Positions 6,381 through 26,827 of a stretch of DNA of 54,165 nt are shown here, piece after piece. Below the pieces are notes generated by a model that was given only the letters and a program-made list of their open reading frames with translations, was not told the DNA's origin and searched no databases. This DNA is from Blastococcus haudaquaticus (GTDB lineage Bacteria > Actinomycetota > Actinomycetes > Mycobacteriales > Geodermatophilaceae), in contig NZ_OCNK01000009.1 of assembly GCF_900230285.1 (NCBI RefSeq), positions 1 through 54,165 of the forward strand. The letters are read 5' to 3'. Each line of letters starts with the position of its first letter. Position 1 is the first letter of the stretch. The position numbers and the translations under genes were made by a program.

Positions 6381-6398
6381 CTTGCGGATCCCTTGCGG
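6381..6398 (+). promoter_or_regulatory. CTTGCGG direct repeat before the first TasA-like gene
   Basis: CTTGCGG-ATCC-CTTGCGG: two 7-bp half-sites with a 4-bp spacer, 11-bp period, ending 87 bp before the GTG at 6486. The same element with one base changed occurs before the second TasA-like gene (26806-26789, minus strand), 90 bp from its start and in the same orientation. This layout is typical of OmpR/PhoB-family regulator sites. Confidence 0.65.
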
Positions 6399-6485
6399 CT
6401 GAGCGGCGGGAATCCTGAGCTGCCGGGCCCACGGTGGGAGCTGACCCCGGACGACCGTCGTCCGGCACGCAGCTAGGGGAGATCC

Positions 6486-7106
6486 GTGTCGATCCGTTCC
6501 GACGTCACCGCTGCCCGCCGTTCGTCCCTCACCAAGGTCGTCGCGTCCGCCGGCGTCGTGGCGGCCGCCGCCGCCGTCGCCGGCCTGGGCACCTTCGGCA
6601 GCTTCACCGACAGCACGACCCCCGTGGTTCCCACCGTCGACACGGGCACGGTCTCGATCAACCTCTCGCCGGCGTCGTCGTACGCCACCGTGCCCGTCAC
6701 CACCGGCGGGTTCCTCCCGGGTGACAGCAGCGCGACGCCGTTCGACGTGACCAACGACGGCAGCGTCGCCTGGGAGTCGCTGACCTTCACGTCGTGGGCG
6801 ACCACGTCCAGCGTGCTCGACAGCGACCCCCTGCACGGCCTGCAGCTCGCACTCGAGTCCTGCTCGGAGTCGTGGACCGTGTCGGGCAGCGGGTACGCCT
6901 GCGGCGGCGACCTGACGCCGCTGTACGCGGGGCCGATCATGGTGGACCGGGCACTCGCCGGCGCCGTGAGCGTGGCCCCCGGTCGCACCGACCACGTGCT
7001 GGCGACCATCTCCTTCCCGGAGACCGCTGGGGACGAGCACCAGGGCAAGGTCAGTCAGATGGCCTTCCGGTTCACCGCCGTGCAGCGCGACGGCGCCACC
7101 AGCTGA
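6486..7106 (+). CDS. TasA/camelysin-like secreted surface protein
   Basis: A 206-residue protein from GTG 6486 with a GGGGAG ribosome site. A basic N-terminus and hydrophobic segment (residues about 15-37) lead into LGTFGSFTDSTTP, the motif around the cleavage site of SipW-dependent TasA/CalY proteins. The rest is a single beta-rich domain (FLPGDSSATPFDVTNDGS), with two Cys pairs possible. Family members form extracellular fibres or camelysin-type surface proteins. It is a paralogue of 26093-26698, which sits beside a SipW peptidase; none is encoded here. A histidine kinase/regulator operon follows. Fibre formation is inferred. Confidence 0.82.
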   Translation: MSIRSDVTAARRSSLTKVVASAGVVAAAAAVAGLGTFGSFTDSTTPVVPTVDTGTVSINLSPASSYATVPVTTGGFLPGDSSATPFDVTNDGSVAWESLTFTSWATTSSVLDSDPLHGLQLALESCSESWTVSGSGYACGGDLTPLYAGPIMVDRALAGAVSVAPGRTDHVLATISFPETAGDEHQGKVSQMAFRFTAVQRDGATS

Positions 7107-7127
7107 CGCGCGCGTCGGATGAGAGAG

Positions 7128-7145
7128 CTCTCACGGTCCTCTCAT
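7128..7145. promoter_or_regulatory. CTCTCA direct repeat before the kinase operon
   Basis: CTCTCAC-GGTC-CTCTCAT: 7-bp half-sites, 4-bp spacer, 11-bp period, 34 bp before the GTG at 7180 that opens the histidine kinase/OmpR regulator operon. Related CTCATC/CTCTCA repeats lie near the next genes (10191-10227 and 11504-11532). The spacing fits an OmpR-family operator and possible autoregulation by the product of 9010-9672. Confidence 0.55.
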
Positions 7146-7179
7146 CCTCCAGAACCGGTGACGCACGGACGCTGGCCCG

Positions 7180-7485
7180 GTGCGCCTGCGACCCGTCCTG
7201 ATCGCGGTCGCCGTCGCGCTGGTCCTGGTCGCAGCGGGCGGATGGGCCCTGCTGGGGCCGGCGGGCAGCGTGCGCCCGGGCCTGCCCGAGCCGATCCGGA
7301 TCACCACGACACCGGCGCCCGGGACACCGCAGGACGCGCCTTCGCCGTCGCCGGTCCCGAGCACGGAGGTCCCGGCGCCGGCGCCGGCCGATGTCGTCCC
7401 GCCCCCACCGCTGCCCGACGACGACGGGGACGACGGGGACGACGACGGGCCGGATGACGTTGATGACCCTGATGGCGATGACTGA
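7180..7485 (+). CDS. Small membrane-anchored protein with Pro-rich and acidic tail
   Basis: A 101-residue protein from GTG 7180. Residues 4-26 are a signal or anchor helix (VLIAVAVALVLVAAGGWALL). Residues about 45-80 are Pro/Ala/Ser-rich, and the last 25 residues are almost entirely Asp and Gly. No known domain. It overlaps the kinase start (ATGACTGA, 7478-7485), so it is translationally coupled to the sensor. An Asp-rich extracytoplasmic tail could bind cations, suggesting a ligand or accessory role for the kinase, but that is conjecture. Confidence 0.72.
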   Translation: MRLRPVLIAVAVALVLVAAGGWALLGPAGSVRPGLPEPIRITTTPAPGTPQDAPSPSPVPSTEVPAPAPADVVPPPPLPDDDGDDGDDDGPDDVDDPDGDD

Positions 7486-9013
7486 GGCGCGCGGCGCCAC
7501 CCGCTCACGCTGGGTGCCGCGCGCTGCGCGGACCCGCATCATCGGCTGGGTCCTGCTGCTCGTGTTCCTCGCCCTCGCCGTCCTCACCTTCGTGACCTGG
7601 CGGCTGCTCGTCCGGGAGATCGACGAGCGGATGGACCTGACCCTCGACACCGAGGTGTTCGAGTTCCGGCAGATCGTCGAGTCGGGGAACGACCCACGGA
7701 CCGGCGAGCCGTTCGACTCCGTCGACTCCGTCCTCGAGACCGTCATCACCTACAACCTGGCCCGGCCGAACGAGAAGTTCCTCGGCTACGTCGACGGTGC
7801 GTACCGGTTCCAGAGCCGGATCGAGGCGCCGGTCCTGCTCAGCGAGGACGCCGAGTTCACCCGGCTGGTGGGCTCGGTCGAGGAGACCGTCGCCGGCCGC
7901 TACGAGAGCGGTGCCGGGGAGATCCGCTACCTCGCCGTCCCGGTGTCCCTCGCCGGCGACCCGAGGTCGGGGGTCGCCGTCGTCGCCTACTTCGCCGACC
8001 AGGAGCGCGACTCCGCCCACCACACGGCGCGGCTGATGCTGGCCGTCGGCGGGGTCACCGTGCTGCTGGCCGCCGCCGGTGCCTGGGTGGTGGCCGGCCG
8101 GATCCTGCGTCCGGTCCGCGACGTGGCCGCGACCGCCCAGGGCATCACCGAGCGCGACCTCTCCGGGCGCATCCCCGTGGACGGGCGTCCCGCCGACGAG
8201 CTGACCGACCTCGCGACGTCGGTCAACGCGATGCTCGACCGGTTGGAGTCGGGAGCCGCCGCCCAGCGCCGGTTCCTCGACGACGCGGGCCACGAGCTCC
8301 GGACGCCGATCACCATCGTGCGCGGGCACCTCGAGGTCCTCGACCCGACCGACCAGGTCGACGTGCGGGACACCGTGGCGCTCGTGGACGACGAGCTGGA
8401 CCGGATGAACCGCATCGTCTCCGACCTGCTGCTCCTCGCCCGGGCCGAGCAGCCGCGGTTCGTCCGCCCCCAGCCGGTCGACGTCGAGGCGCTCACCTCG
8501 GCGGTGTTCGACAAGGTGCGGCGGCTGGGCGACCGGCACTGGGCGCTGGAGACGACCGCCCGCGTCGACGCGCTGCTGGACCCGCAGCGGGTGACCCAGG
8601 CGCTGGTCGCCCTCGCCGACAACGCCGTCCGCTACACCGCCCCCGGCGTCCGCATCTCCGTCGGCAGCCAGTACAGCGGCGGGGCGCTGCGCTTCTGGAT
8701 CTCCGACACCGGGCCCGGCGTCCCGGAGGAGGACCGGGCGCGGGTCTTCGAGCGCTTCGCCCGCGGAGCCGCCGGCGCCCGCCGTTCCGACGGCGCCGGG
8801 CTGGGCCTGGCCATCGTGGCGGCCATCGCCCAGGCGCACGGGGGGACGGCTGTGCTCGACAGCGTCACCGGGCGCGGGACGACGGTGACGCTGGTGATCC
8901 CGGCGCAGGTCGCGCCGCCGGACGACGGCAGCACCGACACCGTGGACGACGACCTCGCCACGCCCGACATCCCGACCGACGAACCCATCGCACCCCGAGG
9001 AGGCCGGCCGTGA
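7478..9013 (+). CDS. Sensor histidine kinase (HAMP, two-component)
   Basis: A 511-residue transmembrane kinase. ATG 7478 is chosen because it overlaps the upstream stop. Transmembrane helices lie near residues 21-41 and 185-208 and flank a 140-residue extracytoplasmic sensor. HAMP follows (RILRPVRDVAATAQGI). The HisKA phospho-acceptor is in FLDDAGHELRTPI (residue about 274), and the ATPase boxes are DNAVRYT, DTGPGVPEED and DGAGLGLAIV. The regulator gene starts inside its stop codon (GTGA), so the two form a cognate pair. Domain order and pairing resemble actinobacterial TrcS- or MprB-like kinases. The signal is unknown. Confidence 0.93.
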   Translation: MTEARGATRSRWVPRAARTRIIGWVLLLVFLALAVLTFVTWRLLVREIDERMDLTLDTEVFEFRQIVESGNDPRTGEPFDSVDSVLETVITYNLARPNEKFLGYVDGAYRFQSRIEAPVLLSEDAEFTRLVGSVEETVAGRYESGAGEIRYLAVPVSLAGDPRSGVAVVAYFADQERDSAHHTARLMLAVGGVTVLLAAAGAWVVAGRILRPVRDVAATAQGITERDLSGRIPVDGRPADELTDLATSVNAMLDRLESGAAAQRRFLDDAGHELRTPITIVRGHLEVLDPTDQVDVRDTVALVDDELDRMNRIVSDLLLLARAEQPRFVRPQPVDVEALTSAVFDKVRRLGDRHWALETTARVDALLDPQRVTQALVALADNAVRYTAPGVRISVGSQYSGGALRFWISDTGPGVPEEDRARVFERFARGAAGARRSDGAGLGLAIVAAIAQAHGGTAVLDSVTGRGTTVTLVIPAQVAPPDDGSTDTVDDDLATPDIPTDEPIAPRGGRP

Positions 9014-9672
9014 GCCGAGTCCTGATCGCCGAGGACGAGCCGCGCATCGCTTCCTTCATCGAGAAGGGGCTGAAGGCGCACGGCTTCACCACCGCCGTGG
9101 CCGGTGACGGCCGGACGGCCCGGGCCTCAGCCCTCAGCGGCGAGTTCGACCTGCTGGTACTCGACATCGGGCTGCCGGGGATGGACGGCTTCGAGGTCCT
9201 CCGGTCGCTGCGGGCCGAGCGATGCACCATCCCGGTCGTCGTCCTGACCGCCCGCGACAGCGTCCAGGACACCGTCGCCGGCCTCGAGGGTGGCGCCGAC
9301 GACTACATGCCCAAGCCGTTCCGGTTCGAGGAGCTGCTCGCCCGGATCCGGCTGCGCCTGGCCGGGGGCCGAGGCACGGAGGTGACCGTGCTCAGCTGCG
9401 GTGACCTGTCCCTCGACCTGCGCACGCGCCGGGCGCGGGCAGGCGATCGCACCGTCGACCTCTCCGCGCGGGAGTTCGCCCTCGCCGAGACCTTCCTGCG
9501 GCATCCGGGCCAGGTGCTGGCCCGGGAGCAGCTGCTCAGCCACGTCTGGGGCTACGACTTCGACCCCGGCTCCAACGTCGTGGACGTCTACGTGCGCTAC
9601 CTCCGCAAGAAACTCGGCGCCGACCGCATCGAGACGGTGCGCGGGATGGGCTACCGCCTGCTCGAGGCCTGA
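9010..9672 (+). CDS. OmpR/PhoB-family response regulator
   Basis: A 220-residue regulator. The receiver domain (residues 1-115) has the acidic pair EDE, phospho-Asp in LLVLDIGLPGMDG (about residue 51) and Lys in MPKPF. The C-terminal winged helix (residues about 130-220) has LSAREFALAETFLRHPGQVL, HVWGYDFDPGSNVVDVYVRYLRKKL and TVRGMGYRL. Coupled to the kinase at 7478-9013 by a 4-base overlap. Direct repeats of CTCTCA before the operon and near 10-11.5 kb are plausible binding sites. A strong inverted-repeat terminator follows 7 bp after the stop. Confidence 0.95.
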   Translation: MSRVLIAEDEPRIASFIEKGLKAHGFTTAVAGDGRTARASALSGEFDLLVLDIGLPGMDGFEVLRSLRAERCTIPVVVLTARDSVQDTVAGLEGGADDYMPKPFRFEELLARIRLRLAGGRGTEVTVLSCGDLSLDLRTRRARAGDRTVDLSAREFALAETFLRHPGQVLAREQLLSHVWGYDFDPGSNVVDVYVRYLRKKLGADRIETVRGMGYRLLEA

Positions 9673-9679
9673 GACGCCG

Positions 9680-9712
9680 ACGACCCCCCGGCGCCGTGCG
9701 CCGGGGGGTCGT
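9680..9712. terminator. Bidirectional terminator
   Basis: ACGACCCCCCGGCGC pairs perfectly over 15 bp with GCGCCGGGGGGTCGT around a CGT loop. It lies between the convergent regulator gene and the 9724-10128 gene, so it can serve both. Confidence 0.85.
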
Positions 9713-9723
9713 TCCGCGGAGGG

Positions 9724-10128
9724 TCAGTCGTCGGTGTCCGGGCTGTCGACGTCCGGGGTCTGGACGTCGGGGGTGTCGACGTCGGCGCTCTGCACGTCAG
9801 CCGAGTCCCAGGCGCTCTCGGCGGGCGAGTCGGCGGTCTCCGGGGACGCGTCGACCGGCGCGGCGTCGGGGCTGTCGGTGACGCTCTCGGTGGGGGAGTC
9901 GGCAGACTCCGGGGACGCGTCGGCCGGAGCGGCGGCCACGGAGGCGTCGGGGGAGTCCGACGCGGACTGCGCGGATGCGTCAGCGACCGGGGCGGCGACC
10001 GTCACGCTGTCGGGCACCGGGCCGGAGCGGTCGTCGTCGGCGGCGGCGAGGCCGACGCCGGTAACACCGAGGCCGGTCAGGGCGGCGCCGAAGGTGACGA
10101 TCTTCCAGGTGGCGGGGCGGCGGGTCAT
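9724..10128 (-). CDS. Secreted Asp/Ser/Pro/Ala repeat protein
   Basis: A 134-residue protein from ATG 10128. A signal peptide (TWKIVTFGAALTGLGVTGVGLAAA) ends near residue 30. The remainder is low complexity: imperfect repeats of A(S/D)PE(S/T)ADSP and a final series of DVQ/DVDTPD units ending SPDTDD. It has no Cys and is strongly acidic. No catalytic domain is seen; it may be a cell-surface or ion-binding protein. A degenerate TGAGAG repeat (11-bp spacing) lies upstream, which would place it under the neighbouring two-component system. Confidence 0.75.
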   Translation of the reverse strand: MTRRPATWKIVTFGAALTGLGVTGVGLAAADDDRSGPVPDSVTVAAPVADASAQSASDSPDASVAAAPADASPESADSPTESVTDSPDAAPVDASPETADSPAESAWDSADVQSADVDTPDVQTPDVDSPDTDD

Positions 10129-10190
10129 GGGAGGAGTTCCTTCCGTCGAGGTGTCGTGTCGCTGACACCACTGAGGTTGTCCGCCGCGGG

Positions 10191-10227
10191 TGAGAGCCCG
10201 GGGAGACTCGGATGAAGGGCCTCTCAT
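10191..10227. promoter_or_regulatory. Degenerate TGAGAG/CTCTCA repeats
   Basis: TGAGAG (10191), GGAGAC (10202) and TGAAGG (10213) follow each other at 11-bp steps, and CTCTCAT sits at 10221. They fall in the 95-bp gap before the 10128 start. Similarity to the 7128-7145 box suggests a shared regulator, but the second and third units match only 4 of 6 bases. Confidence 0.35.
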
Positions 10228-11471
10228 GCGGGGCGGGCCCACTGCTCGGCGAGGGCGACCCGCTCGGCGGTGACGGCCGGCCAGCCCGGCTGCTGTACCC
10301 GGAAGGGTCCGGTGGCCAGGCCCAGCAGCACGGCGGCCACCCGTGTCCGCACCTGCGCGGCGGGCCAGCGCCGCAGGGCGGCCGTCTCGACCTCCTGCCG
10401 GTACCGCACCGACGTCGCGGGGACGGGGAGCACCTGCTCCAGGACGGCGAGATGGGCCAGCAGGGTCGCCCAGTCGTCGATCCGGTGGCCGCACCCCGCG
10501 GTGTCGACGTCGAGCAGCCCCACGATCCGGCCGTCGTCCACGAGCAGCTGGGCCTCGTAGAAGTCGCCGTGCACCGGAACGAGGTCGTGCTCGCCGGGGT
10601 CGGTCGCGGCCAGGCGGGACGTGAGGGCGTCGAGCCGGGGGCGCAACCGTGGCGCGACGGCGGCCAGCACCGCCGCGTGGTCGCCGGCCCGCGCCGGCCC
10701 GTCGCCCGGTCGCCGCCGCCCCGGGGCTCCCAGCCCGGCCACCCCGAGGGGCAGCGCGTCCAGCACGCGGTCCAGTTCGTCGGGTGACGGCAACCCGCAG
10801 CCGTCCGCGGCGAGCAGTGCCCGCATCGGCTTGCCGGGCAGCCCGGGCAGTACCACCACGCCGTCGGGGGTGGCGGCCTGCACCGGCGGGACCGGCACGG
10901 CGCCGGCCAGGAGCTCGTGCCGCGCCACCAGCTGGTCGACCGCCGAGGGCCGGACCACCTTGAGGAACAGCCGCCCCTCCGGCGTCTGCGCCTCGACCAC
11001 CGCCCGGCGGCCCGGGCGGTAGGAGCGCAGCGTCAACCGCGGCGGCCCGGGGACCAGCCCGAGCTCACCGAGTCGGGCGCCCACGGCGGCCGACGACGAC
11101 GCCCAGGCCAGACCGGGGAGCGCCGGGTCCAGCGGCCACCGCCACAGGCCGACCCGCACCGTATCCGTCCCGGACGCGCCCTCCAGCACGGCGGCGCCCT
11201 CGGGGATGCGCGTACCGGTCGTCGCGGCCAGGGACTCCCGCGTCTCCCGGCCGTCGGCCCACGCGACCGCGGCGGAGTACTGCGCCGTCGCGGCGCCGTC
11301 GGGCTGCAGGGAGACCGTGGTGGCCCGCAGCGTGCGCAGCCGGCCGCCCAGGGGAGCGAGGACGGCGGTCCAGAGGTCGGCGGCCGGCTCCCCGAGCAGC
11401 AGCTGGAGCGAGGGCGGCCACGCCGCCACGACGTCGGGGTCCACGGGCGCCGGCACGGCGGGAGAGGTCAC
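10224..11471 (-). CDS. Aminoglycoside phosphotransferase-fold kinase family protein
   Basis: About 415 residues if it starts at GTG 11471; GTG 11483 is equally possible and neither has a clear ribosome site. The C-terminal half has the APH/choline-kinase catalytic signature VHGDFYEAQLLVDDG, then LLDVDTAGCGHRIDDWA, giving the catalytic Asp and the metal-binding Asp. The N-lobe Lys may be in GRLFLKVVRP. The first 150 residues are less typical. Substrates of this family range from sugars (maltokinase) to drugs and amino alcohols, and cannot be told here. The gene upstream is divergent gluconokinase, across an interval with CTCATC repeats. Confidence 0.75.
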   Translation of the reverse strand: MTSPAVPAPVDPDVVAAWPPSLQLLLGEPAADLWTAVLAPLGGRLRTLRATTVSLQPDGAATAQYSAAVAWADGRETRESLAATTGTRIPEGAAVLEGASGTDTVRVGLWRWPLDPALPGLAWASSSAAVGARLGELGLVPGPPRLTLRSYRPGRRAVVEAQTPEGRLFLKVVRPSAVDQLVARHELLAGAVPVPPVQAATPDGVVVLPGLPGKPMRALLAADGCGLPSPDELDRVLDALPLGVAGLGAPGRRRPGDGPARAGDHAAVLAAVAPRLRPRLDALTSRLAATDPGEHDLVPVHGDFYEAQLLVDDGRIVGLLDVDTAGCGHRIDDWATLLAHLAVLEQVLPVPATSVRYRQEVETAALRRWPAAQVRTRVAAVLLGLATGPFRVQQPGWPAVTAERVALAEQWARPA

Positions 11472-11503
11472 CGGAGGACGGTGCACGCGTCCGGTGACGT
11501 CCC

Positions 11504-11532
11504 GATGAGCTCTCGATGAGGCCGCTCTCATC
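11504..11532. promoter_or_regulatory. GATGAG/CTCATC repeats between divergent genes
   Basis: GATGAGC-TCTC-GATGAGG (11504-11521) is a 7+4+7 direct repeat, followed by CTCTCATC at 11525-11532 in the opposite sense. The half-site resembles that at 7128-7145. It could act on the leftward kinase-fold gene or the rightward gluconokinase. Confidence 0.45.
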
Positions 11533-11580
11533 CGGGGGCACGGGGCGCCGGCGCACCGGCGGGGGGCATACGGTCGCGCC

Positions 11581-12141
11581 ATGCAGCCGGAGACCCAGGT
11601 GGCGCCCACGTCGATCGTCGTGATGGGGGTGTCCGGATCCGGGAAGACGACGGTCGCGGCCGGCCTCGTGGAGCGGTTGGGGTGGGAGTTCGCCGAGGGG
11701 GACGACTTCCACCCGCCCGCCAACGTCGAGAAGATGCGCAGCGGCCGGCCGCTGGACGACGACGACCGCTGGCCCTGGCTGCGCTCCCTGGCCGCCTGGT
11801 TCGGGGAGCACGAGCGGGCCGGCGCCTCCGTCGTCGTCACGTGCTCGGCGCTCAAGCGCAGCTACCGCGACCTGCTGCGCGACGGACACCCCTCGGTCTG
11901 GTTCGCGCACGTCACCGCCGATGCCGAGGTGCTCCGGCGGCGGGTCGCGGACCGCTCCGGCCACTACATGCCGTCGTCCCTGCTCGACAGCCAGCTGGCG
12001 ACCCTGGAGCCCTTGCAGGACGACGAGCCCGGCGCCGCCGTCCCGGGTGACGGCGCGCCGGAGGACGTCGTCGCCCTGCTGCTGGCCGCACTCGCCGCCG
12101 AGCGCGGTGTCCGCCCCGGGAGTCCGCGGACCTCCGCCTGA
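11581..12141 (+). CDS. gntK: Gluconokinase
   Basis: A 186-residue P-loop kinase from ATG 11581. Walker A is GVSGSGKTTVA (residues about 16-26), followed by the GntK motifs EGDDFHPPANVEKM and GRPLDDDDRWPWL. VVVTCSALKRSYRDLLR and RRRVADRSGHYMPSSLLDSQLATLE complete the family pattern. It phosphorylates gluconate to 6-phosphogluconate, feeding the pentose phosphate pathway in the cytosol. No permease or dehydrogenase is adjacent. Length is normal for the family. Confidence 0.95.
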   Translation: MQPETQVAPTSIVVMGVSGSGKTTVAAGLVERLGWEFAEGDDFHPPANVEKMRSGRPLDDDDRWPWLRSLAAWFGEHERAGASVVVTCSALKRSYRDLLRDGHPSVWFAHVTADAEVLRRRVADRSGHYMPSSLLDSQLATLEPLQDDEPGAAVPGDGAPEDVVALLLAALAAERGVRPGSPRTSA

Positions 12142-12282
12142 CGGTTGCGTCGCGGGACCGCCCGCAGTCCACATCGCGGGTCCGGAGGCCGTCGGACATC
12201 CACGCTTCCGGCCCGCGCCGGCTGGGCATGGACGGTGCCCCGGCGCGGACGGCGCGGGACGGGGCTACGGGGAGAACTGAAG

Positions 12283-13032
12283 ATGAGCACGACGGGTGCT
12301 GCACGGGGGTCGTCGGCGGCGGGGTTGTACGGCAGCAGCGTGGGTCCACGTCCGATCCGGGCCGCGGTGACGGAGTGCATCGGTACGGCGATCCTGGTGT
12401 TCGTCGGGACCAGCGCCGCCGTGGCGACGGCCGCCCGGGGTGTCGACGTCTACGACACGCTGGCGGTGGTGCTCGCCTTCGGGGTCACCCTGGTCGCGCT
12501 CGTGGCGGCATTCGGGCACGTCTCGGGCTGCCACCTGAACCCGGCCGTGACCATCGGTCTGGCGGCGACCGGCCGGTTCCCGTGGTCGGCGGCCGGCGTG
12601 TACGTGCTGGCACAGCTGGCCGGCGGGGTGCTGGGCGCGCTGGCCACCTGGGTCAGCTACGGCGGCCGGGCGCGCAGCGAGGGGGCGCTCGGTGCGACCC
12701 ATCCGATGGACGGCGTCTCTGCCGGTCAGGCCTTCGTCGTGGAGCTCCTGGTCACCTTCGTCCTGGTGCTCGTCGTCGTCTCCGTGGCCACCGACGACCG
12801 GGCCGAGAGCGCGATCGCGCCGGTGGCCGTCGGCTTCGCCCTGGCCGCCGGCATCTTCGTCGCCGGTCCGCTGACCGGCGGCGCGGTCAACCCGGCCCGG
12901 GCCTTCGGCCCGAACCTGCTGGCCGCGGACCTCGGCTCGCTGTGGATCTACCTGCTGGCGCCCACGATCGGCGGGGTCCTGGCTGCCGTCCTCTACGACC
13001 GCGTCCTGGCACCGGCCGAGCCGCCGGAGTGA
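12283..13032 (+). CDS. Aquaporin / MIP family channel
   Basis: A 249-residue membrane channel from ATG 12283 (GGGGAGAACTGAAG upstream). It has two NPA half-helices, GCHLNPAVTIG near residue 85 and GGAVNPARAFGP near residue 205, and six hydrophobic helices. The aromatic/Arg filter Arg follows the second NPA. Short loops favour a water channel (AqpZ-like) over a glycerol facilitator, but this is inference. About 140 bp without an obvious promoter separates it from gntK. Confidence 0.93.
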   Translation: MSTTGAARGSSAAGLYGSSVGPRPIRAAVTECIGTAILVFVGTSAAVATAARGVDVYDTLAVVLAFGVTLVALVAAFGHVSGCHLNPAVTIGLAATGRFPWSAAGVYVLAQLAGGVLGALATWVSYGGRARSEGALGATHPMDGVSAGQAFVVELLVTFVLVLVVVSVATDDRAESAIAPVAVGFALAAGIFVAGPLTGGAVNPARAFGPNLLAADLGSLWIYLLAPTIGGVLAAVLYDRVLAPAEPPE

Positions 13033-13053
13033 CGGGCGGCTGCTGGCCCGGGG

Positions 13054-13404: not shown

Positions 13405-13547
13405 GGGAGCGGTCCTTCCGCTCGGGCGGGGCAGCGGACCCCGGTGGCGCCGGTTCCCGGCCCTTGCTGCATCGGCGGGCGGCAGGTGGGGATCCAGCCG
13501 AATCACCCACGTCTCACCCCCGCGCCGGGCGGGCGCGGGCGGGCGGG

Positions 13548-19274: not shown

Positions 19275-19303
19275 GCGCCCTCTCCCGGTTGCCGGCGGCT
19301 GAC

Positions 19304-19320: not shown

Positions 19321-19405
19321 GGCTTCGACCGGAGTCTTGCACACGGTCGCGCAGGGTTCCAGAGGCACGACCCACCGATGTGCGTGCCGACCCAGAAGGA
19401 GAACG

Positions 19406-20356: not shown

Positions 20357-20361
20357 GACGA

Positions 20362-20395
20362 CGAGGGCCGCTCCCCGAACGGGGAGCGGCCCTCG
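20362..20395. terminator. Perfect hairpin terminator
   Basis: CGAGGGCCGCTCCCC and GGGGAGCGGCCCTCG form a 15-bp perfect stem around GAAC, 5 bp after the lipoprotein stop codon. It has no T tract, as is common in GC-rich actinobacteria. Confidence 0.85.
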
Positions 20396-20402
20396 CTGCG
20401 TT

Positions 20403-20462
20403 CGGCCCCTCTGCAGGGTCCCGCGCCGAGCCTGCGAGGCGTGGGGGGCAGAGGGGTCCTTT
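20403..20462 (-). repeat. Stop-codon-abutting palindromic repeat, copy A
   Basis: Read with the bacterioferritin gene, TGA is followed by AAAAGGACCCC, a core containing CTCGCAGGCTC, and GGGGCC. The terminal arms CCCCTCTGC/GCAGAGGGG pair perfectly. Two more family members occur at 37954-38010 and 49109-49163, each directly at a stop codon. Probably a dispersed terminator-like element. Confidence 0.7.
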
Positions 20463-20945
20463 TCAGGGCGTCTCGGTGCTGATCTGCGCGGCGAGGTACT
20501 GCGGCGCGCCGACCCGCTCGATGGCCCCGAGCTGCGCCTCGAACCAGTCGGCGTGCTTCTCCTCGTCGCGGACCATCTCCTCGAAGACGGCGGCGGTGCC
20601 GTGGTCGCCGAGCTCGTGGCACTCCTTCGCGGAGGCGTTGAACTGCGCGACGGCGGCCTTCTCGCTGTCCAGCGCGAGGACCAGCATCTCCTCGGCCGTC
20701 TCGCCGACGCGGATCGCGCCGAGCCGCTGGACGTTCGGGTGACCGTCGAAGAGCAGGACGCGCTGGATCAGGGCGTCGGCGTCGCGCATCTCGTCGATCG
20801 AGAGGTCGTAGAAGACCTTGCCGAGCTTGGGCAGACCCCAGGCGTCGAGCATGCGGGCGTTCAGGAAGTACGTATTGGTGACGGTCAGCTCGAAGGTGAG
20901 CGCGTCGTTGAGCAGTTCGACCACACGGGGGCTAACGGGCTGCAC
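20463..20945 (-). CDS. bfr: Bacterioferritin with altered ferroxidase site
   Basis: 160 residues from GTG 20945, the usual Bfr length. The four-helix ferritin fold is clear: VVELLNDALTFELTVTNTYF, KVFYDLSIDEMRDADALIQR, RVLLFDGHPNVQRLG, VRDEEKHADWFEAQL. The heme-ligand Met (in IDEMRDA) and ferroxidase Glu18, Glu51, Glu127 and His130 equivalents are present. The His54 equivalent is Asp (EMRDAD instead of EM-x-HA) and the Glu94 position reads Ala (VLALDSE). The protein stores iron in the cytosol. It overlaps bfd by 14 bp and shares its iron box. Confidence 0.93.
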   Translation of the reverse strand: MQPVSPRVVELLNDALTFELTVTNTYFLNARMLDAWGLPKLGKVFYDLSIDEMRDADALIQRVLLFDGHPNVQRLGAIRVGETAEEMLVLALDSEKAAVAQFNASAKECHELGDHGTAAVFEEMVRDEEKHADWFEAQLGAIERVGAPQYLAAQISTETP

Positions 20946-21162
20946 CAGCCACTTCCACTTCTTGCTCGGCGGCCTGATCGGCACGGCGCTCGGCACGGAC
21001 CGGGCAATGCTGACACACGAGCTCGCGGAGGGAACTGATGCAGTTGCCGCAGGTGCGCCCGGCACCGGTCTCGCGGGCGACGTCGGCGACGCAGCGCGCG
21101 CCGTTCGCGATGGACTCGAGGATGTCGCGGTCGGTCACCACGTTGCAGTGGCACACGTACAT
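20932..21162 (-). CDS. bfd: Bacterioferritin-associated ferredoxin
   Basis: 76 residues from ATG 21162. The [2Fe-2S] Cys set is Cys4, Cys6, Cys38 and Cys41 (MYVCHCNVVTD and GRTCGNC), the Bfd pattern. Bfd supplies electrons to bacterioferritin to release stored iron. The first gene of a bfd-bfr pair with overlapping reading frames, behind a DtxR/IdeR box at 21229-21247. The Lys/Arg-poor acidic tail (ADQAAEQEVEVAG) is longer than in E. coli Bfd. Confidence 0.94.
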   Translation of the reverse strand: MYVCHCNVVTDRDILESIANGARCVADVARETGAGRTCGNCISSLRELVCQHCPVRAERRADQAAEQEVEVAGAAR

Positions 21163-21228
21163 GACGGTCGCCTCACCGGTAGCGCGAGCAGGGTCTGCCG
21201 TCCAGAGGCAGAACCCTGGGCATTGGAT

Positions 21229-21247
21229 GCAGGTTAGCCTTACCTGA
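21229..21247. promoter_or_regulatory. DtxR/IdeR iron box before bfd-bfr
   Basis: GCAGGTTAGCCTTACCTGA matches the 19-bp iron-box consensus at about 15 positions, including the central GGTTAGCCT-N-ACCT. It lies 67 bp before the bfd ATG, so the pair is probably repressed when iron is plentiful. Confidence 0.82.
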
Positions 21248-21304
21248 CCGATCGGCGTCAAGTGGACTGGTCAGGATGTCGGACCCGCGCCCTAGGTTCC
21301 GATC

Positions 21305-22087
21305 ATGACCGATCTGAGCATCCGCGCGCGCACCCTGCTCGACCTGCACACCGCACCCGGGATCTTCGTGCTGGCCAACGTCTGGGACGTGGCGTCGGCC
21401 CGCGTGGTCGCGGCCACCGACGGCGTCCGGGCGGTGGCGACGGCGAGCCACGCCATCGCCGCGACCTTCGGCTACGAGGACGGCGAGAACATCCCGCTGG
21501 ACGTCCACCTCGACATGGTCGGCCGCATCGCGGCGGCCGTGGACCTGCCGGTGACGATGGACTTCGAGGCCGGCTACGGCGATGCGGGGGAGACCGCGCG
21601 CCGGGCGATAGGGGCCGGTGTCGTCGGCGGCAACCTCGAGGACCGGATGCAGCCGCTCGACGACGCCGTCGCGGCCGTCGAGGCCGTTCTGCGCGCCGGT
21701 CGCGACGCCGGGATCGACTTCGTGCTCAACGCCCGCACCGACACCTTCCTGCACGCCGACGCGGAGGCGCAGCGGAGCGACCTGGTCACCGAGGCGGTCC
21801 GTCGCGGTCGGGCGTTCCTCGGCGCGGGCGCGCCCGTGGTGTTCGTCCCCGGCGTGGTCGAGCGCGAGGAGATCGTCGCGCTGGTGGACGGCATCGGCCG
21901 CGGGAAGGTCTCGCTCATGGCCGTCCCCGGCGCGACCCCGCCCGTGCGGGAGCTCCAGGAGATGGGCGTCGCCCGGCTCTCCACCGGGCCGTTCACCCAG
22001 CGGGTCGCGCTCACGGCCCTGCAGGACGCCGCGGCGGAACTCGTGGCGGGTGGCGTGCTCCCGCCGGCCACCCGCGGGCTCAGCTGA
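21305..22087 (+). CDS. Isocitrate lyase/PEP mutase family enzyme
   Basis: 260 residues from ATG 21305. It belongs to the PEP mutase/isocitrate lyase superfamily: FVLANVWDVASARVVA, MDFEAGYGDAGETARRAI, GGNLEDRMQPL, DFVLNARTDTFL and SLMAVPGATPPVRELQEMGV. These TIM-barrel enzymes form or break C-C or C-P bonds of 2-oxo/2-hydroxy acids with Mg2+. It lacks the full isocitrate lyase KKCGH motif and is too short, so it is of the oxaloacetate/phosphonopyruvate hydrolase-like group. The substrate is not identifiable. A methyltransferase follows 8 bp downstream. Confidence 0.9.
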   Translation: MTDLSIRARTLLDLHTAPGIFVLANVWDVASARVVAATDGVRAVATASHAIAATFGYEDGENIPLDVHLDMVGRIAAAVDLPVTMDFEAGYGDAGETARRAIGAGVVGGNLEDRMQPLDDAVAAVEAVLRAGRDAGIDFVLNARTDTFLHADAEAQRSDLVTEAVRRGRAFLGAGAPVVFVPGVVEREEIVALVDGIGRGKVSLMAVPGATPPVRELQEMGVARLSTGPFTQRVALTALQDAAAELVAGGVLPPATRGLS

Positions 22088-22095
22088 GGCCGGCG

Positions 22096-22611
22096 GTGCC
22101 CGCGTCGGAGCGGCTGGCCTGGACGGCCGAGGTCGTCGGGGTGTCCCCGTCGGACCGGGTGCTGGAGGTCGGCTGCGGGCACGGCGTGCTGGTGTCCCTG
22201 CTGGCCGAACGGCTGACCGACGGCGTCGTGATCGGCGTCGACCGGTCGGCCACGATGATCGCGACGGCCGCGCGGCGGAACCGGGCGGCCGTCGACGCCG
22301 GACGGGTCCGCCTGGCGGCCGCCGTGCTGACCGCCGCGGACCTCGATTCCTCGTCCTTCGACCTCGTCGTCTCGTTCAACGTGCGCGCGTTCTGGACACC
22401 GCCCGCCCCCGAGTGGGACGTCGTCGACCGCATCCTCTCCCCGGGTGGCCGGGTCTTCGTGGCGTTCTCCGTGATGAAGGCCGGATCGGACGCGCAGATC
22501 ACGGAGGCGGTCGAGCGGCTGGCCGGCGAGCGAGGTCTCGTGTGCGCGGCGGTGCACCGCGGCGGCACGTCTCCGATGGAGTCGGTGGCGGTGGAGCTCC
22601 ACCGCCGCTGA
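22096..22611 (+). CDS. Class I SAM-dependent methyltransferase
   Basis: 171 residues from GTG 22096, 8 bp after the preceding gene. SAM-binding motif I is VLEVGCGHGVLVSLLAERL; the acidic motif II is VIGVDRSATMI, and motif IV is FDLVVSFNVRAFW. It is small, with a complete Rossmann core but no recognition domain. Substrate unknown. Spacing suggests co-transcription with the PEP mutase-like gene. Confidence 0.87.
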   Translation: MPASERLAWTAEVVGVSPSDRVLEVGCGHGVLVSLLAERLTDGVVIGVDRSATMIATAARRNRAAVDAGRVRLAAAVLTAADLDSSSFDLVVSFNVRAFWTPPAPEWDVVDRILSPGGRVFVAFSVMKAGSDAQITEAVERLAGERGLVCAAVHRGGTSPMESVAVELHRR

Positions 22612-22746
22612 GCCTCACTCCTCGGGGGGAGCAGGACCTGCCCACGGGTGCTCGGCTCAAGCCCGGGCCCGCCGGTGCCGATCACCCGGACAGGTGAACG
22701 GAGGGCTCGTCCTCCGCACCGTCGCCGTCGGTGAGGAGGAGAGGTC

Positions 22747-23454
22747 GTGCCCGCACAGTCCGTGCTCGTCGTGGAGGACACCGACGAGATCCGCGAGCTC
22801 GTCACCACGGTGCTGCGCCGAGCCGGGTTCGACGTCCGGGAGGCGGCCACCGGAGCCGCGTGCCTCGACGAGGTCCGCCGCGACGCCCCCGACCTGATCG
22901 TGCTGGACCTGGGGCTCCCGGATGCCGACGGCACCGAGGTGTGCCGGCAGATCCGGGCCGAGACGCAGTGCTACGTCCTGATGCTGACCGCCCGCGCCGA
23001 GGAGGTCGACCTGCTCATCGGGCTGGCCGTCGGCGCCGACGGGTACATGGCCAAGCCGTTCTCCCCGCGCGAGCTCGTGGCGCGGGTGCAGGCGATGCTG
23101 CGCTTCCCGCGCACCGCCCCGGCGCCGGCCGAGCCCGCAGCGGCGGTGGAGGAGTCGGTGCGCCGGCTCGCCGAGCTCGAGGTGGACGAGGAGAGCCGCG
23201 AGGTGCGGGTGGACGGCTCGGTCGTCGACCTCACGCGGACCGAGTTCGACCTGCTCGCCGCCCTGGCGTCGCGGCCGGGCCGGGTGCTGCAGCGGGAGAC
23301 CCTGCTGCGCGAGGTCTGGCAGACCGACTGGGAGGGCAACCTCCGGCTGGTCGAGGCGCACATGTCGAACCTGCGGCGCAAGCTCGTCGCGGCCGGCCTG
23401 AACTCTCCCGAGATCCGCACCGTGCGGGGAGTGGGCTACCGGCTCGTCGCCTGA
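22747..23454 (+). CDS. OmpR/PhoB-family response regulator
   Basis: 235 residues from GTG 22747 with GGAGGAGAGG upstream. The receiver (residues 1-115) has VVEDTDE, phospho-Asp in IVLDLGLPDADG and Lys in MAKPFSP. The winged helix (residues about 140-235) has LTRTEFDLLAALASRPGRVL, LRLVEAHMSNLRRKL and TVRGVGYRL. No kinase is directly adjacent; the closest histidine kinase is the PAS kinase at 26932-28245, and an HPt protein is encoded at 24308-24985. It is a candidate output regulator for that phosphorelay and for the CTTGCGG repeats. Confidence 0.94.
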   Translation: MPAQSVLVVEDTDEIRELVTTVLRRAGFDVREAATGAACLDEVRRDAPDLIVLDLGLPDADGTEVCRQIRAETQCYVLMLTARAEEVDLLIGLAVGADGYMAKPFSPRELVARVQAMLRFPRTAPAPAEPAAAVEESVRRLAELEVDEESREVRVDGSVVDLTRTEFDLLAALASRPGRVLQRETLLREVWQTDWEGNLRLVEAHMSNLRRKLVAAGLNSPEIRTVRGVGYRLVA

Positions 23455-23459
23455 GGACA

Positions 23460-23537
23460 GCTCCGGGAGCATCGCAGCGAGCGCCAGCGAGCGAGGAGCG
23501 GACCGGAGCGCGGAGTCAGGCCGGCTGGATGGCCTGA
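23460..23537. repeat. Intergenic inverted repeats between convergent genes
   Basis: GCTCCGG (23460) pairs with CCGGAGC (23503), enclosing a doubled AGCGAGCG. A second hairpin TCAGGCC/GGCCTGA lies at 23516-23537. They sit between two convergent stops and may act as terminators. Confidence 0.5.
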
Positions 23538-23546
23538 GCGGAGGCC

Positions 23547-24263
23547 CTAGGCGGGGGCGACGTCGGCGAAGCGGCGGCCCTCGGCCCGCGAGCAGACCCG
23601 CACCAGTTCCATCAGCCGTCCCTGCGGCACGACACCCCGCCGGGCGTCCCGGCCGAGAGCGGTCGAGACGGCCGCGACGTCCGCGTGTCCCACCTGGGCG
23701 CTGACGGCGGCCAGCAGCTCCGCGGTGCCCGCGACGCCGGCGGCGTCGCCCGCCCGGGCGGCGGCCACGATGGCGGCGAGCCGGTGCGGCAGCGCGCTGG
23801 CGTACATCTCCTCGGCCCGCTGCGACGTCTCCGGCTCGGCGGCAGGTGCGGTCGGCACCTCCGTCGTGCCCGCCGGGGTCAGCCCCTTCATGACGTCCAC
23901 GAACAGCCGGGGGTCGACGGGCTTGGCCAGGCAGGCCACCGCCCCGGCGGAGGCGGCCAGTGCCCGCACCTGCTGGGTGCGGGCGGCAGCGGTCACCACG
24001 AACCGGGCACGGCTGCCGTTCTCGCGGAGCCGGCGCATCAGCGACGTGCCGCGGCCGCTGCGCATGACCATGTCGGTGACCACGAGGTCGGGGTCGACGG
24101 CGGCCGCGAGGCGCAGGGCGGCGTCCATGCCCGCGGCCTCGTGCACCCGCCAGCCGCCGAGGATCAGCAGCGTGGAGATGCGGTGCCGGGCGGCCGCGGA
24201 GTCGTCGACGACCAGGGCCGTCAGGACGGCGGGTGCGCCGGTGTGCTGGGGGTGGTGCGACAT
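23547..24263 (-). CDS. Receiver-HPt protein with degenerate HPt domain
   Basis: 238 residues from ATG 24263. The receiver domain (residues about 13-125) keeps VVDDS, phospho-Asp64 in LVVTDMVM, and Lys114 in CLAKPVDP. The C-terminal helical domain (about 150-235) aligns with the HPt domain of the upstream paralogue, but the phospho-His motif AHTLAGTSG is AELLAAVSA here: the His is replaced by Glu182. It cannot relay phosphate through that site. It may act as a sink, decoy or dimer partner. It ends the operon that begins with the TasA-like gene. Confidence 0.85.
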   Translation of the reverse strand: MSHHPQHTGAPAVLTALVVDDSAAARHRISTLLILGGWRVHEAAGMDAALRLAAAVDPDLVVTDMVMRSGRGTSLMRRLRENGSRARFVVTAAARTQQVRALAASAGAVACLAKPVDPRLFVDVMKGLTPAGTTEVPTAPAAEPETSQRAEEMYASALPHRLAAIVAAARAGDAAGVAGTAELLAAVSAQVGHADVAAVSTALGRDARRGVVPQGRLMELVRVCSRAEGRRFADVAPA

Positions 24264-24307
24264 GGTGCTGGGGTCCGTCTCTGGAGTGGTGCGGGGTGCG
24301 GGCGGGC

Positions 24308-24985
24308 TCAGACCCGTGCGAGTTCCTGCAGTTCGACGACGCGGGCGTGGGCCATGACGCCGCGGCGGGCGTCCGCGGCGATGGCCTGGCAGACCGAGGC
24401 GACGTCCGGGTGACCGAACTGGCCGCTGGTGCCGGCGAGGGTGTGCGCCGCGGAGACGACTGCCGGTGCATCTCCGGCCCGGGTGCCCGAGGCGATGGCC
24501 TGGAGCCGGTGCGGCAGGGCGTCGAGGTACATGCCGTGCAGCCGGTCCATCAGCTCTGCGTCGACGTCGTCGTCGTGCAGGTGGGCCCACTCGCGGAGCT
24601 CGGTCGGTTCTTCGACCTGCGCAGCCGGCCCCGTGGTCCGGCTGCGCAGGAAGTCCAGGAGGATGCGGGCGCCGATCGGCTTGGCCAGGCAGGCGATGGC
24701 GCCGGCGGTGACGGCGCCGGCCCGGTCCTCGTCGGTCGGCTCGGCGGTGACCACCAGGAAGCGGGCGAGGGAACCCTCGTGCCGCATCCGGCGGAGCATC
24801 GCGATCCCGTTCCCGCCGGCCACGGTCACGTCGGTGACGACCAGGTCCGGGTCGGCGGTGGTGGCGACGCGGTGCGCGGTGGTGATGTCGGCCGCCTCGC
24901 GCACCTGCCAGCCGCCGAGGCGGAGGAGGCCGACGACCCGGCGGCGGGCGTGGGAGTCGTCGTCGACGACGAGGGCGGTCAGCAC
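24308..24985 (-). CDS. Receiver-HPt hybrid protein
   Basis: 225 residues from GTG 24985, overlapping the upstream stop (GTGCTGA). The receiver has VVDDD, phospho-Asp52 in LVVTDVTV and Lys102 in CLAKPIGA. The HPt domain (residues about 145-220) has YLDALPHRLQAIASGTRAGD and an intact phospho-His181 in AHTLAGTSGQFG. A protein with both can pass phosphate between a kinase and a second regulator. It is co-transcribed with the SipW/TasA genes and followed by a paralogue that lost the His. Confidence 0.88.
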   Translation of the reverse strand: MLTALVVDDDSHARRRVVGLLRLGGWQVREAADITTAHRVATTADPDLVVTDVTVAGGNGIAMLRRMRHEGSLARFLVVTAEPTDEDRAGAVTAGAIACLAKPIGARILLDFLRSRTTGPAAQVEEPTELREWAHLHDDDVDAELMDRLHGMYLDALPHRLQAIASGTRAGDAPAVVSAAHTLAGTSGQFGHPDVASVCQAIAADARRGVMAHARVVELQELARV

Positions 24986-25455
24986 GCCAGCACCGCCGTC
25001 CGGGGCGTCTCCGCCGTCCAGCCGTAGCTGGTGAGCGTGATGACCGAGACGCGCGGCTGGTAGTTCAGGTAGCCGCGGTCGACGCGGGCGTTCACGGTGC
25101 GGTTGACGGCGTCGGTCTCGGCCATGACGACCGACGTGCCGTTGTTCAGGTGGGCCATGACGCGGTAGCCGGTCACGCCGCGTGCGGTGGTGCTCGCCGG
25201 CCAGGTGACGGTGGCGTCGTACCAGTAGTAGTAGGTCGTGACCCACGTGCCGTTCGCGTCGTAGTAGCCGCCGTTGGCGGTCTGGCCGCAGTAGTCGTTC
25301 ACGGTGACCGACGCCGGGGCGGCGACGGTGCCGGTGCCGACGGTCGTCCTGGCCGTGTAGGTGTCCTGGAAGGCGGCGGAGGCTGGGATGGCGGCGGCGA
25401 CCGTGACGGCCAGCGTGAGGCCGATCAGGATCAGGACCCGACGGATGGTGGTCAT
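24979..25455 (-). CDS. Secreted protein of the TasA/SipW operon
   Basis: 158 residues from ATG 25455, overlapping the sipW stop (ATGA). A signal peptide ends at IPASA (cleavage after about residue 27). The mature start AFQDTYTARTTVGTGTVAAP recalls the F-x-D...G-T-V pattern of TasA-like mature ends. The rest looks like a fibronectin III-type beta domain (DATVTWPASTTARGVTGYRV), with Cys only near the middle and at the very C-terminus (AVLAC). Likely an accessory or minor subunit of the surface assembly; no exact family recognised. Confidence 0.8.
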   Translation of the reverse strand: MTTIRRVLILIGLTLAVTVAAAIPASAAFQDTYTARTTVGTGTVAAPASVTVNDYCGQTANGGYYDANGTWVTTYYYWYDATVTWPASTTARGVTGYRVMAHLNNGTSVVMAETDAVNRTVNARVDRGYLNYQPRVSVITLTSYGWTAETPRTAVLAC

Positions 25456-26060
25456 GCCGTGCCCTCCTCTTCGGTGGTCGTGGGGCGCCAGATGGTCAGG
25501 AGCAGCCAGCCGGCCAGCAGTGCCGGGGCGCCGTAGAGCAGCACCTGGGTCACCACGGGGGCGCGCAGCGCCTGGATTAGGTGGCCGAGCTCGGGGATGA
25601 CGGCCTGGACCTCGTAGGCGGTGTCGCCCTGGAGGGTCGCCGTCCAGGGGTCGACGGCGGCGTTCGCGTCGCCCTTGGTCTGGATCTGCACGGCCCCGTC
25701 GGGGCCGGTCTCGACCGAGACGACCCGGTGGGTGACGAGGCTGCGGTCGTCGATCGGCTTGTGGTACGTGATCACCATGCCCTCGGTGACCTCGGAGACC
25801 GAGATCGGCGTGACGACGGTGACGTCACCCGGGTCGATCCCCGGCGCCATGCTCGCGGTCAGCATGGTCATCGTGCGGTAGCCCAGCAGGTGCGGGCCGA
25901 CGGCCAGGACGAGGAACACCAGGACGGCCAGGCCCATGACTCCGCGGACCAGCCACGGGGCCACGCGGCCCACGATCCGGGCGGCGCGAGAGCGCGTGTC
26001 CTCGGCCAGGGGCAGCTGGAGGGCTGCCCCCGGGCGACGGACGGGGAGGACGGCGGTCAT
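25452..26060 (-). CDS. sipW: SipW-type (ER-type) signal peptidase I
   Basis: 202 residues from ATG 26060. The catalytic Ser70 is in MLTASMAPGIDPGD and the general base is His111 in LVTHRVVSV, with Asp131 in TKGDANAAVDP. The Ser-His arrangement marks the SipW/archaeal-eukaryotic subtype rather than Ser-Lys LepB. Helices lie near residues 37-60 and 170-190. SipW processes TasA/camelysin-type preproteins. It lies 32 bp after a TasA-like gene and before another secreted protein, and is the only signal peptidase in the window. Confidence 0.93.
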   Translation of the reverse strand: MTAVLPVRRPGAALQLPLAEDTRSRAARIVGRVAPWLVRGVMGLAVLVFLVLAVGPHLLGYRTMTMLTASMAPGIDPGDVTVVTPISVSEVTEGMVITYHKPIDDRSLVTHRVVSVETGPDGAVQIQTKGDANAAVDPWTATLQGDTAYEVQAVIPELGHLIQALRAPVVTQVLLYGAPALLAGWLLLTIWRPTTTEEEGTA

Positions 26061-26092
26061 GGCGAGATCTCCGAGTGGTCGTCAGGCCGGAT

Positions 26093-26698
26093 TCAGCGGG
26101 TGGTGGCGGTGCGCTGGGAACCGATGAAGGTGAGGGTCAGCGCGGCGCTCTTGCCCTGGAAGGTGTTGTCGGCCGACGTGGGCAGCGCGATCGAGACGGC
26201 GAGGTTGTCGCTCGCGCCGGCGGCCAGCGAGGCCGGGTTGTTGAGCGTCATGTCGATGACAGCCGGGCCGGAGCCGAGGGTCCGCTCACCACTCGAGCAG
26301 GTCCAGGAGTTGTTGGCGCCGGCGGTCCAGGCGACGGCGCAGGACTTCACGGCCAGCTGGAGGCCGTTGGTCACGTCGGAGGTGAGGACGCTCGAGCCGG
26401 TGGTGGTGCTCCGGAGCACGACCGACGACAGCGCCGAGTTGCCGTCGTTCTTCAGCGTGACCGGGCGGGTCAGCGAGTCACCGGGCACGAAGCCGGCGGC
26501 GGTCATGTTGAGGGCCTCGCCACCGGTGAGGTCGATGCTGACCGTGCCCGACGCGACGGTCGTGGTGACCGGGGTGGTGCTGTCGGTGAAGCTACCGAAG
26601 GTGCCCATGCCGGCGACCGCGGCAGCGGCGCCGATGACGCCGAGCGAGCCGACGACCTTGCGGGCGGTGGAGCTGGTGGCGATGGTCTTGGTGCTCAT
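26093..26698 (-). CDS. TasA/camelysin-like secreted surface protein
   Basis: 201 residues from ATG 26698 with GGGAGA upstream. The signal region (VVGSLGVIGAAAAVAGMG) leads into TFGSFTDSTTPVTTTVASG, the SipW-dependent cleavage and start motif of the TasA/CalY family. The mature beta domain has AGFVPGDSLTRPVTLKNDGN. It is clearly paralogous to 6486-7106, and both share the upstream CTTGCGG repeat. First gene of an operon with sipW, a secreted protein and two receiver-HPt genes. Fibre or matrix function is inferred from family and context. Confidence 0.9.
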   Translation of the reverse strand: MSTKTIATSSTARKVVGSLGVIGAAAAVAGMGTFGSFTDSTTPVTTTVASGTVSIDLTGGEALNMTAAGFVPGDSLTRPVTLKNDGNSALSSVVLRSTTTGSSVLTSDVTNGLQLAVKSCAVAWTAGANNSWTCSSGERTLGSGPAVIDMTLNNPASLAAGASDNLAVSIALPTSADNTFQGKSAALTLTFIGSQRTATTR

Positions 26699-26788
26699 GT
26701 CCGTGTCTCCCTGTGTCCGGTGCGTCGACCGGCGTTCCGGCGACAAGGAGAACTCTGGAGGCCCTACCGCAGGGCACCCGCCAGCGAT

Positions 26789-26827
26789 CCGCAAGGAATC
26801 CGCAAGGAATCGGCGAACCCACCGCAA
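26789..26827 (-). promoter_or_regulatory. CTTGCGG repeats before the TasA-sipW operon
   Basis: On the gene strand, CTTGCGG-ATTC-CTTGCGG (26806 to 26789) has an 11-bp period. A third TTGCGG (26827-26822) lies exactly two periods further upstream. The pair ends 90 bp before the ATG at 26698. It is almost identical to 6381-6398. The rest of 26699-26931 shows nothing else definite. Confidence 0.65.

Follow-up and report, generated by a model that had tools for sequence, protein, structure and literature searches.

The window analysed here, a stretch of 54,165 nucleotides of Blastococcus haudaquaticus (contig NZ_OCNK01000009.1 of assembly GCF_900230285.1), carries two distant genes for secreted proteins of the TasA/camelysin family, TasA1 (6486-7106, plus strand, 206 aa) and TasA2 (26093-26698, minus strand, 201 aa), which raises the question whether the two genes are controlled together and by which regulator. 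The initial annotation had pointed to an 18-mer, CTTGCGG-N4-CTTGCGG, ahead of both genes and had placed them in one regulon under an OmpR-type regulator. Both copies were found, at 6381-6398 on the plus strand and at 26806-26789 on the minus strand, and the details given at that time could be reproduced: the copies differ in a single base (ATCC/ATTC), they lie 87 bp and 90 bp ahead of the start codons of TasA1 and TasA2, respectively, and an additional half-site, ATTGCGG, lies 22 bp upstream of the second copy (26822-26828, minus strand).

In order to assess the significance of these matches, the pattern and, as a control, the same pattern reversed were counted. For exact copies in the window, shuffling gave an expectation of 0.01 vs. 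two observed, and none of 100 shuffles reached two. When three mismatches were allowed, the window contained 12 matches vs. 11.9 expected, i.e. chance level, and with two mismatches the whole genome contained 41 matches vs. 165 for the commoner reversed control. Since these mismatch-tolerant counts are at or below chance, information can be drawn only from copies that match exactly or nearly so. The whole genome (4.51 Mb) holds three perfect 18-mers and none of the reversed pattern, and all three are located 87-90 bp ahead of TasA/SipW-type genes, so the copies are not scattered at random across the genome. The third one, at position 197388 of contig 6, lies 87 bp ahead of a gene for a mini-TasA of 63 aa (L056; fetched loci are numbered with L, genomes with G and genera with g).

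The scan of related genomes proposed in the initial annotation was carried out on 112 genomes of the Geodermatophilaceae, from which the surroundings of all exact copies were fetched. We obtained 141 exact 18-mers, a number given both by the sum of the table and by the count in the fetched regions, as compared to 14 reversed ones tallied by eye. A TasA-like gene (hidden Markov model, E<1e-5) is located downstream of 91 of the 141 sites, one of which (L109) precedes a TasA gene that looks frame-shifted, and the start codon is 85-94 bp away from the 18-mer in 86 of the 91 cases. Outside the family, matches with at most one mismatch totalled 119 vs. 351 for the control in 40 order-level genomes, and the 18-mer is thus not enriched in this sample.

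An alignment of the 91 exact-site promoters preceding TasA-like genes revealed the architecture of the full element: four heptads at 11-bp steps with the consensus CTTGCGGAT.. CTTGCGGAT.. CTGGCGGGT.. CCTGCGGTT, a gap of 9 bp and a -10-like hexamer, cAgaGT. The first two heptads are biased because the sites were picked by exact match to them; the third and fourth heptads and the -10 are unbiased. At a threshold of at least 5 of 7 matching bases, the fourth heptad is present in 89 of the 91 sites and the third in 69, and the A (position 50) and T (position 54) of the hexamer are invariant in all 91. Conservation peaks at the heptads with the two following bases, at the -10 and in a short initial stretch; it is low upstream of position -2 and over the greater part of the 5' leader, with the exception of purine-rich sequence ahead of the start codon. 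The element thus consists of direct repeats of about 7 bp spaced by 11 bp, placed directly upstream of the predicted -10 in the position of a -35. The layout of PhoB/OmpR-family sites claimed earlier held with regard to the heptads at 11-bp steps; the unit itself had to be revised from two or three half-sites to four heptads plus a -10. An upstream half-site at offset -22, as seen at TasA2, occurs in 15 of the 91 sites (at least 5 of 7 bases) vs. one to four for each of five out-of-phase upstream offsets, and is therefore a feature of a minority of relatives rather than a general one.

In the window, operator 2 (26767-26806, minus strand) has no mismatch to the extended four-heptad pattern, with CTTGCGG at 26806-26800 and 26795-26789, CTGGCGG at 26784-26778 and CCTGCGG at 26773-26767, and the predicted -10 of the TasA2 promoter, placed from the logo, is CAGAGT at 26752-26757. 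Operator 1 (6381-6420, plus strand) is composed of CTTGCGG at 6381-6387 and 6392-6398, GCGGCGG at 6403-6409 and CCTGAGC at 6414-6420; for TasA1, the hexamer CACGGT at 6430-6435 is the predicted -10, and it matches the logo in its three best-conserved positions (A, G and T).

A weight matrix of the element gave 165 matches scoring above zero in the 1.70 Mb fetched around sites and TasA genes, which is not random DNA, vs. none for the reversed matrix. Because the 91 exact TasA sites had served as its training set, the matrix is no independent test of these. A total of 122 matches fall at most 140 bp ahead of a TasA-like gene; the other 43 include one (L227) ahead of a TasA copy that had been dropped as a duplicate. 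For a test from the side of the genes, TasA homologues were searched in the same genomes irrespective of the operator, and most of the extra loci were then fetched. The fetched regions contain 120 close homologues (E<1e-50). The exact 18-mer stands ahead of 84 of them, and of the 36 others 33 show a mutated array scoring above zero, in line with conservation of the element before orthologues. The 15 weaker homologues comprise five mini, cut or broken copies with the exact site and ten distant genes without it; about 15 short or broken TasA places outside the fetched regions are not part of these counts. The element is a conserved promoter element across much of the Geodermatophilaceae, and the genome count together with this conservation supports the earlier proposal that both TasA-like loci belong to one regulon, probably through binding of a common regulator.

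The TasA2 locus points to a candidate for this regulator. It encodes, in this order, a stand-alone receiver (REC), a PAS histidine kinase, then behind the operator TasA2, a SipW-like signal peptidase, a small protein and a protein with receiver and phosphotransfer domains (REC-Hpt), and finally, convergent with the TasA2 operon, a PhoB/OmpR-type response regulator (22747-23454, plus strand) with a receiver and a winged-helix domain (Pfam Response_reg 1.3e-28, Trans_reg_C 3.2e-25). According to Pfam and gene content, kinase, REC, Hpt and DNA-binding regulator, i.e. the components of a phosphorelay, are encoded together. The module of operator, regulator, histidine kinase, TasA, SipW-like peptidase and REC-Hpt recurs, and the regulator beside the site is 79-96% identical in the core genera and 65% in Klenkia (L132). 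Of the 91 TasA sites, 57 adjoin the kinase or the regulator and 34 lie away from the module within the fetched flanks; by-eye comparison showed that the latter fall in 30 genomes, all of which own the regulator. The regulator (E<=1e-90) is present in 82 of the 112 genomes, and exact sites were detected in 69 of these 82 vs. 6 of the 30 others (Fisher p 5e-10, relatedness ignored; tallied by eye, with 10 of the 30 negatives taken by subtraction). Only one of these six genomes has a TasA site, namely the Klenkia genome with the 65%-identical regulator.

The same association was seen at the level of loci. Regulator (at least 60% identity required) and kinase (at least 55%) occur together in 57 of 78 named loci, and 55 of these 57 have the operator. 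Nine of the 57 loci are without a TasA2 in view; these have the operator in seven cases, two of them barely above threshold, and in all seven it precedes REC-Hpt, then the first gene behind the operator. In a metagenome-assembled genome labelled Micrococcales (L303), which encodes a 61%-identical regulator, a four-heptad array is located 93 bp before a gene for a by-eye secreted protein that was not matched by TasA2. With the place of the recognition helix as in PhoB, a comparison of 12 regulator orthologues showed the corresponding winged-helix stretch, RLVEAHMSNLRRKL, to be identical in 11 and to carry a single change in L303, while three relatives from Microcella/Yonghaparkia (about 43% identity) have a differing helix stretch and no operator in the fetched loci. 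No match to the regulator at E<=1e-75 was found in 295 other genomes sampled from the class, where the nine best first-look candidates per genome were scored. On the basis of synteny, co-occurrence and helix conservation, the product of 22747-23454 is most likely the protein that binds the operator. Synteny and co-occurrence are, like the element, its conservation, its position and the -10-like hexamer, direct observations.

We consider it likely that the element is a promoter that depends on an activator. The four CTTGCGG-like half-sites, spaced by 11 bp or one helical turn, would be occupied by two dimers of the 22747-23454 regulator in head-to-tail arrangement, and, since the last half-site ends 9 bp before the -10 hexamer, the bound regulator would cover the place of the missing -35 and bring RNA polymerase to the weak -10 CAGAGT. 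The signal would pass from the PAS histidine kinase to a receiver, on to REC-Hpt and from there to the DNA-binding response regulator, and the output would be the joint expression of TasA-like proteins, SipW-type signal peptidase and, as feedback, REC-Hpt. Binding, activation rather than repression, the order of the phosphorelay and a role of the products in matrix or biofilm are predictions from sequence.

Several observations weigh against this interpretation. The third and fourth heptads of operator 1 are decayed, two TasA genes (L202, L205) show a one-base shift between heptads 1-2 and 3-4, and the close TasA gene of L223 shows no array. Thirteen of the 82 regulator-bearing genomes lack an exact site, at least five of which (G103, G124, G050, G149, G121) carry a mutated array scoring above zero, and two loci (L293, L294), both among the 12 orthologues compared, contain regulator, kinase and the same helix stretch and no operator above threshold. 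Furthermore, no array was found within 300 bp upstream of the regulator's own gene. Much of the co-occurrence is linkage because the regulator shares its locus with TasA2, and its statistics are weakened by the relatedness of the genomes. Finally, 50 of the 141 exact sites are not ahead of a TasA-like gene; one was dropped for lack of sequence, and only 28 of the remaining 49 have both the fourth heptad and the -10, some others, such as those at ABC-F and SARP genes, having a different layout. The 28 sites probably represent further targets of the 22747-23454 regulator, and the rest are probably sites of other regulators or chance matches.

Two other regulators were weighed as binders of the operator. 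The initial annotation had named, besides 22747-23454, the OmpR-type regulator encoded at 9010-9672, 1.9 kb downstream of TasA1, which could act together with the kinase at 7391-9013. Across the 141 sites examined, this gene was seen beside a site in the window alone. Its matches (E<=1e-70) occur in 36 of the 112 genomes; they include no more than 2 of the 16 genomes of the genus and extend to genera g9, g10 and g11, where exact sites are absent. Its helix stretch differs (NVVDVYVRYLRKKL), and its best NCBIfam score, below cut-off, is to a heavy-metal regulator model. Phyletic pattern and absence beside other sites rule it out as the general regulator, and we regard its binding to the operator as very unlikely; of the two regulators named earlier, only 22747-23454 fits in phyletic pattern and synteny. 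Slightly less improbable, albeit still quite unlikely, is that the operator belongs to an activator of the SARP (BTAD) type, as SARPs too use heptameric direct repeats at 11-bp steps. The heptads of PimR read CGGCAAG according to an excerpt of PMC5930380; this is the reverse complement of CTTGCCG. In the own genome, a SARP-ATPase gene is preceded at a distance of 118 bp by three CTTG-type heptads in 11-bp steps (C6:73367-73395, equal to L005:1501-1529), and in L127 an exact 18-mer (5001-5018) is located 79 bp ahead of the gene for an 82%-identical relative, the starts of both genes having been assigned here. The tested SARP (E<=1e-80), one of the five BTAD matches of the genome, none of which is on the contig of the window, is present in 36 of the 112 genomes with a phyletic pattern that does not follow the operator, and it is missing from four genomes (G002, G009, G010, G015) that are 95-100% complete and have operator-TasA pairs. 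In addition, both SARP sites lack CCTGCGG as the fourth heptad, and the one in L127 lacks an A/T hexamer at the -10 place. This one SARP was thus rejected as the TasA regulator by its phyletic pattern, although SARP genes carry similar heptads; these heptads probably form an operator of their own for SARP autoregulation, similar in the heptamer.

The remaining alternatives concern the function of the element. The 22747-23454 regulator might bind the array and repress, or repress or activate depending on phosphorylation; the direction of regulation is not readable from the sequence, and the array abuts the -10. In the logo, the heptads occupy the -35 place, a search of 21000-29800 for sigma-70 consensus promoters gave none (0.1 expected), and the gap between array and -10 is that of PhoB-type activation. 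We consider repression, alone or in turn with activation, unlikely. Alternatively, the conserved block could be the promoter of an alternative sigma factor or upstream DNA duplicated along with the TasA genes, in line with the paralogy of TasA1 and TasA2 and with partial conservation down to about +71. Conservation is, however, mainly confined to the heptads, the -10 and the short initial stretch, being low upstream and in most of the leader, and the same array precedes unrelated genes for REC-Hpt, small leaderless open reading frames (ORFs) and other proteins, which makes this explanation extremely unlikely. Activation by the 22747-23454 regulator remains the preferred reading.

Some of the exact sites without a TasA-like gene fall into groups. 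Six Modestobacter-type sites (L135, L138, L142, L146, L150, L157) are followed by an ORF whose ATG is 61-62 bp from the start of the site; the products are tiny and acidic, with 37 aa in five cases and 63 aa in L146 (MDI...A.ALLA.L...). Since the ATG sits at the transcription start predicted from the -10, the mRNA of these ORFs would be leaderless, and the position of the ATGs agrees with the predicted placement of the -10. A similar ORF with a longer leader was observed in L144. In genomes without the regulator, CTTGCGG-N4-CTTGCGG-TCCRCTAGCG was observed before ABC-F ATPase genes (L101, L104, L129, L131); this is a different conserved element sharing the 18-mer. Eight further loci (L100, L103, L106, L107, L114, L115, L116, L160) share a conserved stretch within about 220 bp after the site, which around CGTCTCCATCGCACGGGGGGACGGAGCC could by eye form a strong hairpin and may represent a structured leader, a small RNA or a decayed gene. 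A known riboswitch in the Geodermatophilus leader was tried as an explanation, and no Rfam match at the gathering threshold was obtained in the eight sources searched (L103, L106, L107 and L115 with leader).

With regard to the target genes, both TasA proteins match Pfam Peptidase_M73 above the cut-off of 22.5 bits, TasA1 with 26.6 bits (6e-6) and TasA2 with 44.5 bits; they are paralogues with 44% identity, and TasA2 has the TasA fold. In the NCBIfam TasA equivalog model, TasA2 scored 21.7 bits vs. a cut-off of 450 and TasA1 gave no match; the two are TasA relatives, and orthology to TasA is only putative. The signal peptidase I encoded behind TasA2 (25452-26060, minus strand) passed the archaeal-type model (NCBIfam sigpep_I_arch, 6e-17, 61.9 bits vs. 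a cut-off of 51.85) and remained below the cut-off of the SipW equivalog model (3e-16, 59.4 vs. 190 bits). It is followed on the same strand by a 158-aa protein (24979-25455), which by eye looks secreted, has a cleavage region like that of TasA (AAFQD) and gave no Pfam match at E<=0.01, and by REC-Hpt (24308-25246; Response_reg 2e-17, Hpt 1e-8), the true start of which is probably a GTG at about 24985, assigned here. Upstream, the PAS histidine kinase (26932-28245, minus strand; Pfam PAS, HisKA and HATPase_c; GTG start at 28245 assigned here) adjoins operator 2, and its start is overlapped by the stand-alone receiver (28242-28664, minus strand; Response_reg 4.5e-24). This REC and REC-Hpt flank the TasA2 operon. 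Mini-TasA genes of 63-64 aa, encoding approximately the signal and cleavage region only, are found behind the operator in three genomes (L056, L186, L090); since genes of this type, with 64 aa, also follow the operator in L186 and L090, the 63-aa mini-TasA of the own genome probably represents a conserved gene and not gene debris.

The element resembles the pho box and other OmpR-PhoB operators in its head-to-tail 7-bp half-sites with 4-bp spacers, in its position directly upstream of the predicted -10 and in the OmpR/PhoB-type regulator encoded alongside; PhoB binds two 11-bp repeats of CTGTCAT plus 4 bp, according to an excerpt of PMC2648988. In contrast to the pho box, the half-site is CTTGCGG, the usual unit has four half-sites, and the genes behind it encode TasA-like secreted proteins instead of phosphate functions. 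The operator of the SARP PimR, described in the excerpt of PMC5930380 as three heptads CGGCAAG with 4-bp spacers, likewise consists of heptameric direct repeats with a similar heptamer (CTTGCCG on the other strand), but differs in the type of regulator, and the distribution of the tested SARP departs from that of the TasA operator. The closest solved relatives of the 22747-23454 regulator by sequence are mycobacterial MtrA and RegX3 (structures 2gwr, 7e-47, and 2oqr, 5e-46); with 204.9 bits vs. the NCBIfam MtrA cut-off of 300, it is not MtrA by this test. MtrA sites are of the GTAAC type, different from CTTGCGG. As in the tapA-sipW-tasA operon of Bacillus subtilis, a gene for a SipW-like peptidase lies behind that for a secreted protein of the TasA fold, but the neighbours in Blastococcus encode histidine kinase, REC, REC-Hpt and a PhoB-type regulator. 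The Bacillus matrix operon is controlled by SinR, Spo0A and others.

In the open-access library searched, we found no paper pairing Geodermatophilaceae with TasA and none joining Geodermatophilus, response regulator and biofilm matrix, and the terms TasA, SipW and camelysin are absent from the main text of one genome comparison of the family (PMC9686282). Two papers, by their titles on ComA and gassericin, combine TTGCGG with a direct repeat and a response regulator. The regulon would be new, and its control of a known kind, a phosphorelay-linked PhoB-type regulator acting here on TasA-like genes. We see about an even chance that the Geodermatophilaceae possess a surface-fibre programme of their own, independently wired, in which a largely family-restricted PhoB-type regulator, a kinase/REC-Hpt phosphorelay and one four-heptad promoter switch on TasA paralogues at scattered loci, genes for mini-TasA and leaderless peptides of 37-63 aa. 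An operator, a regulator and a target set for actinobacterial TasA-like proteins are now ready to test, and the control of surface fibres in soil and stone actinobacteria would thereby become directly testable.

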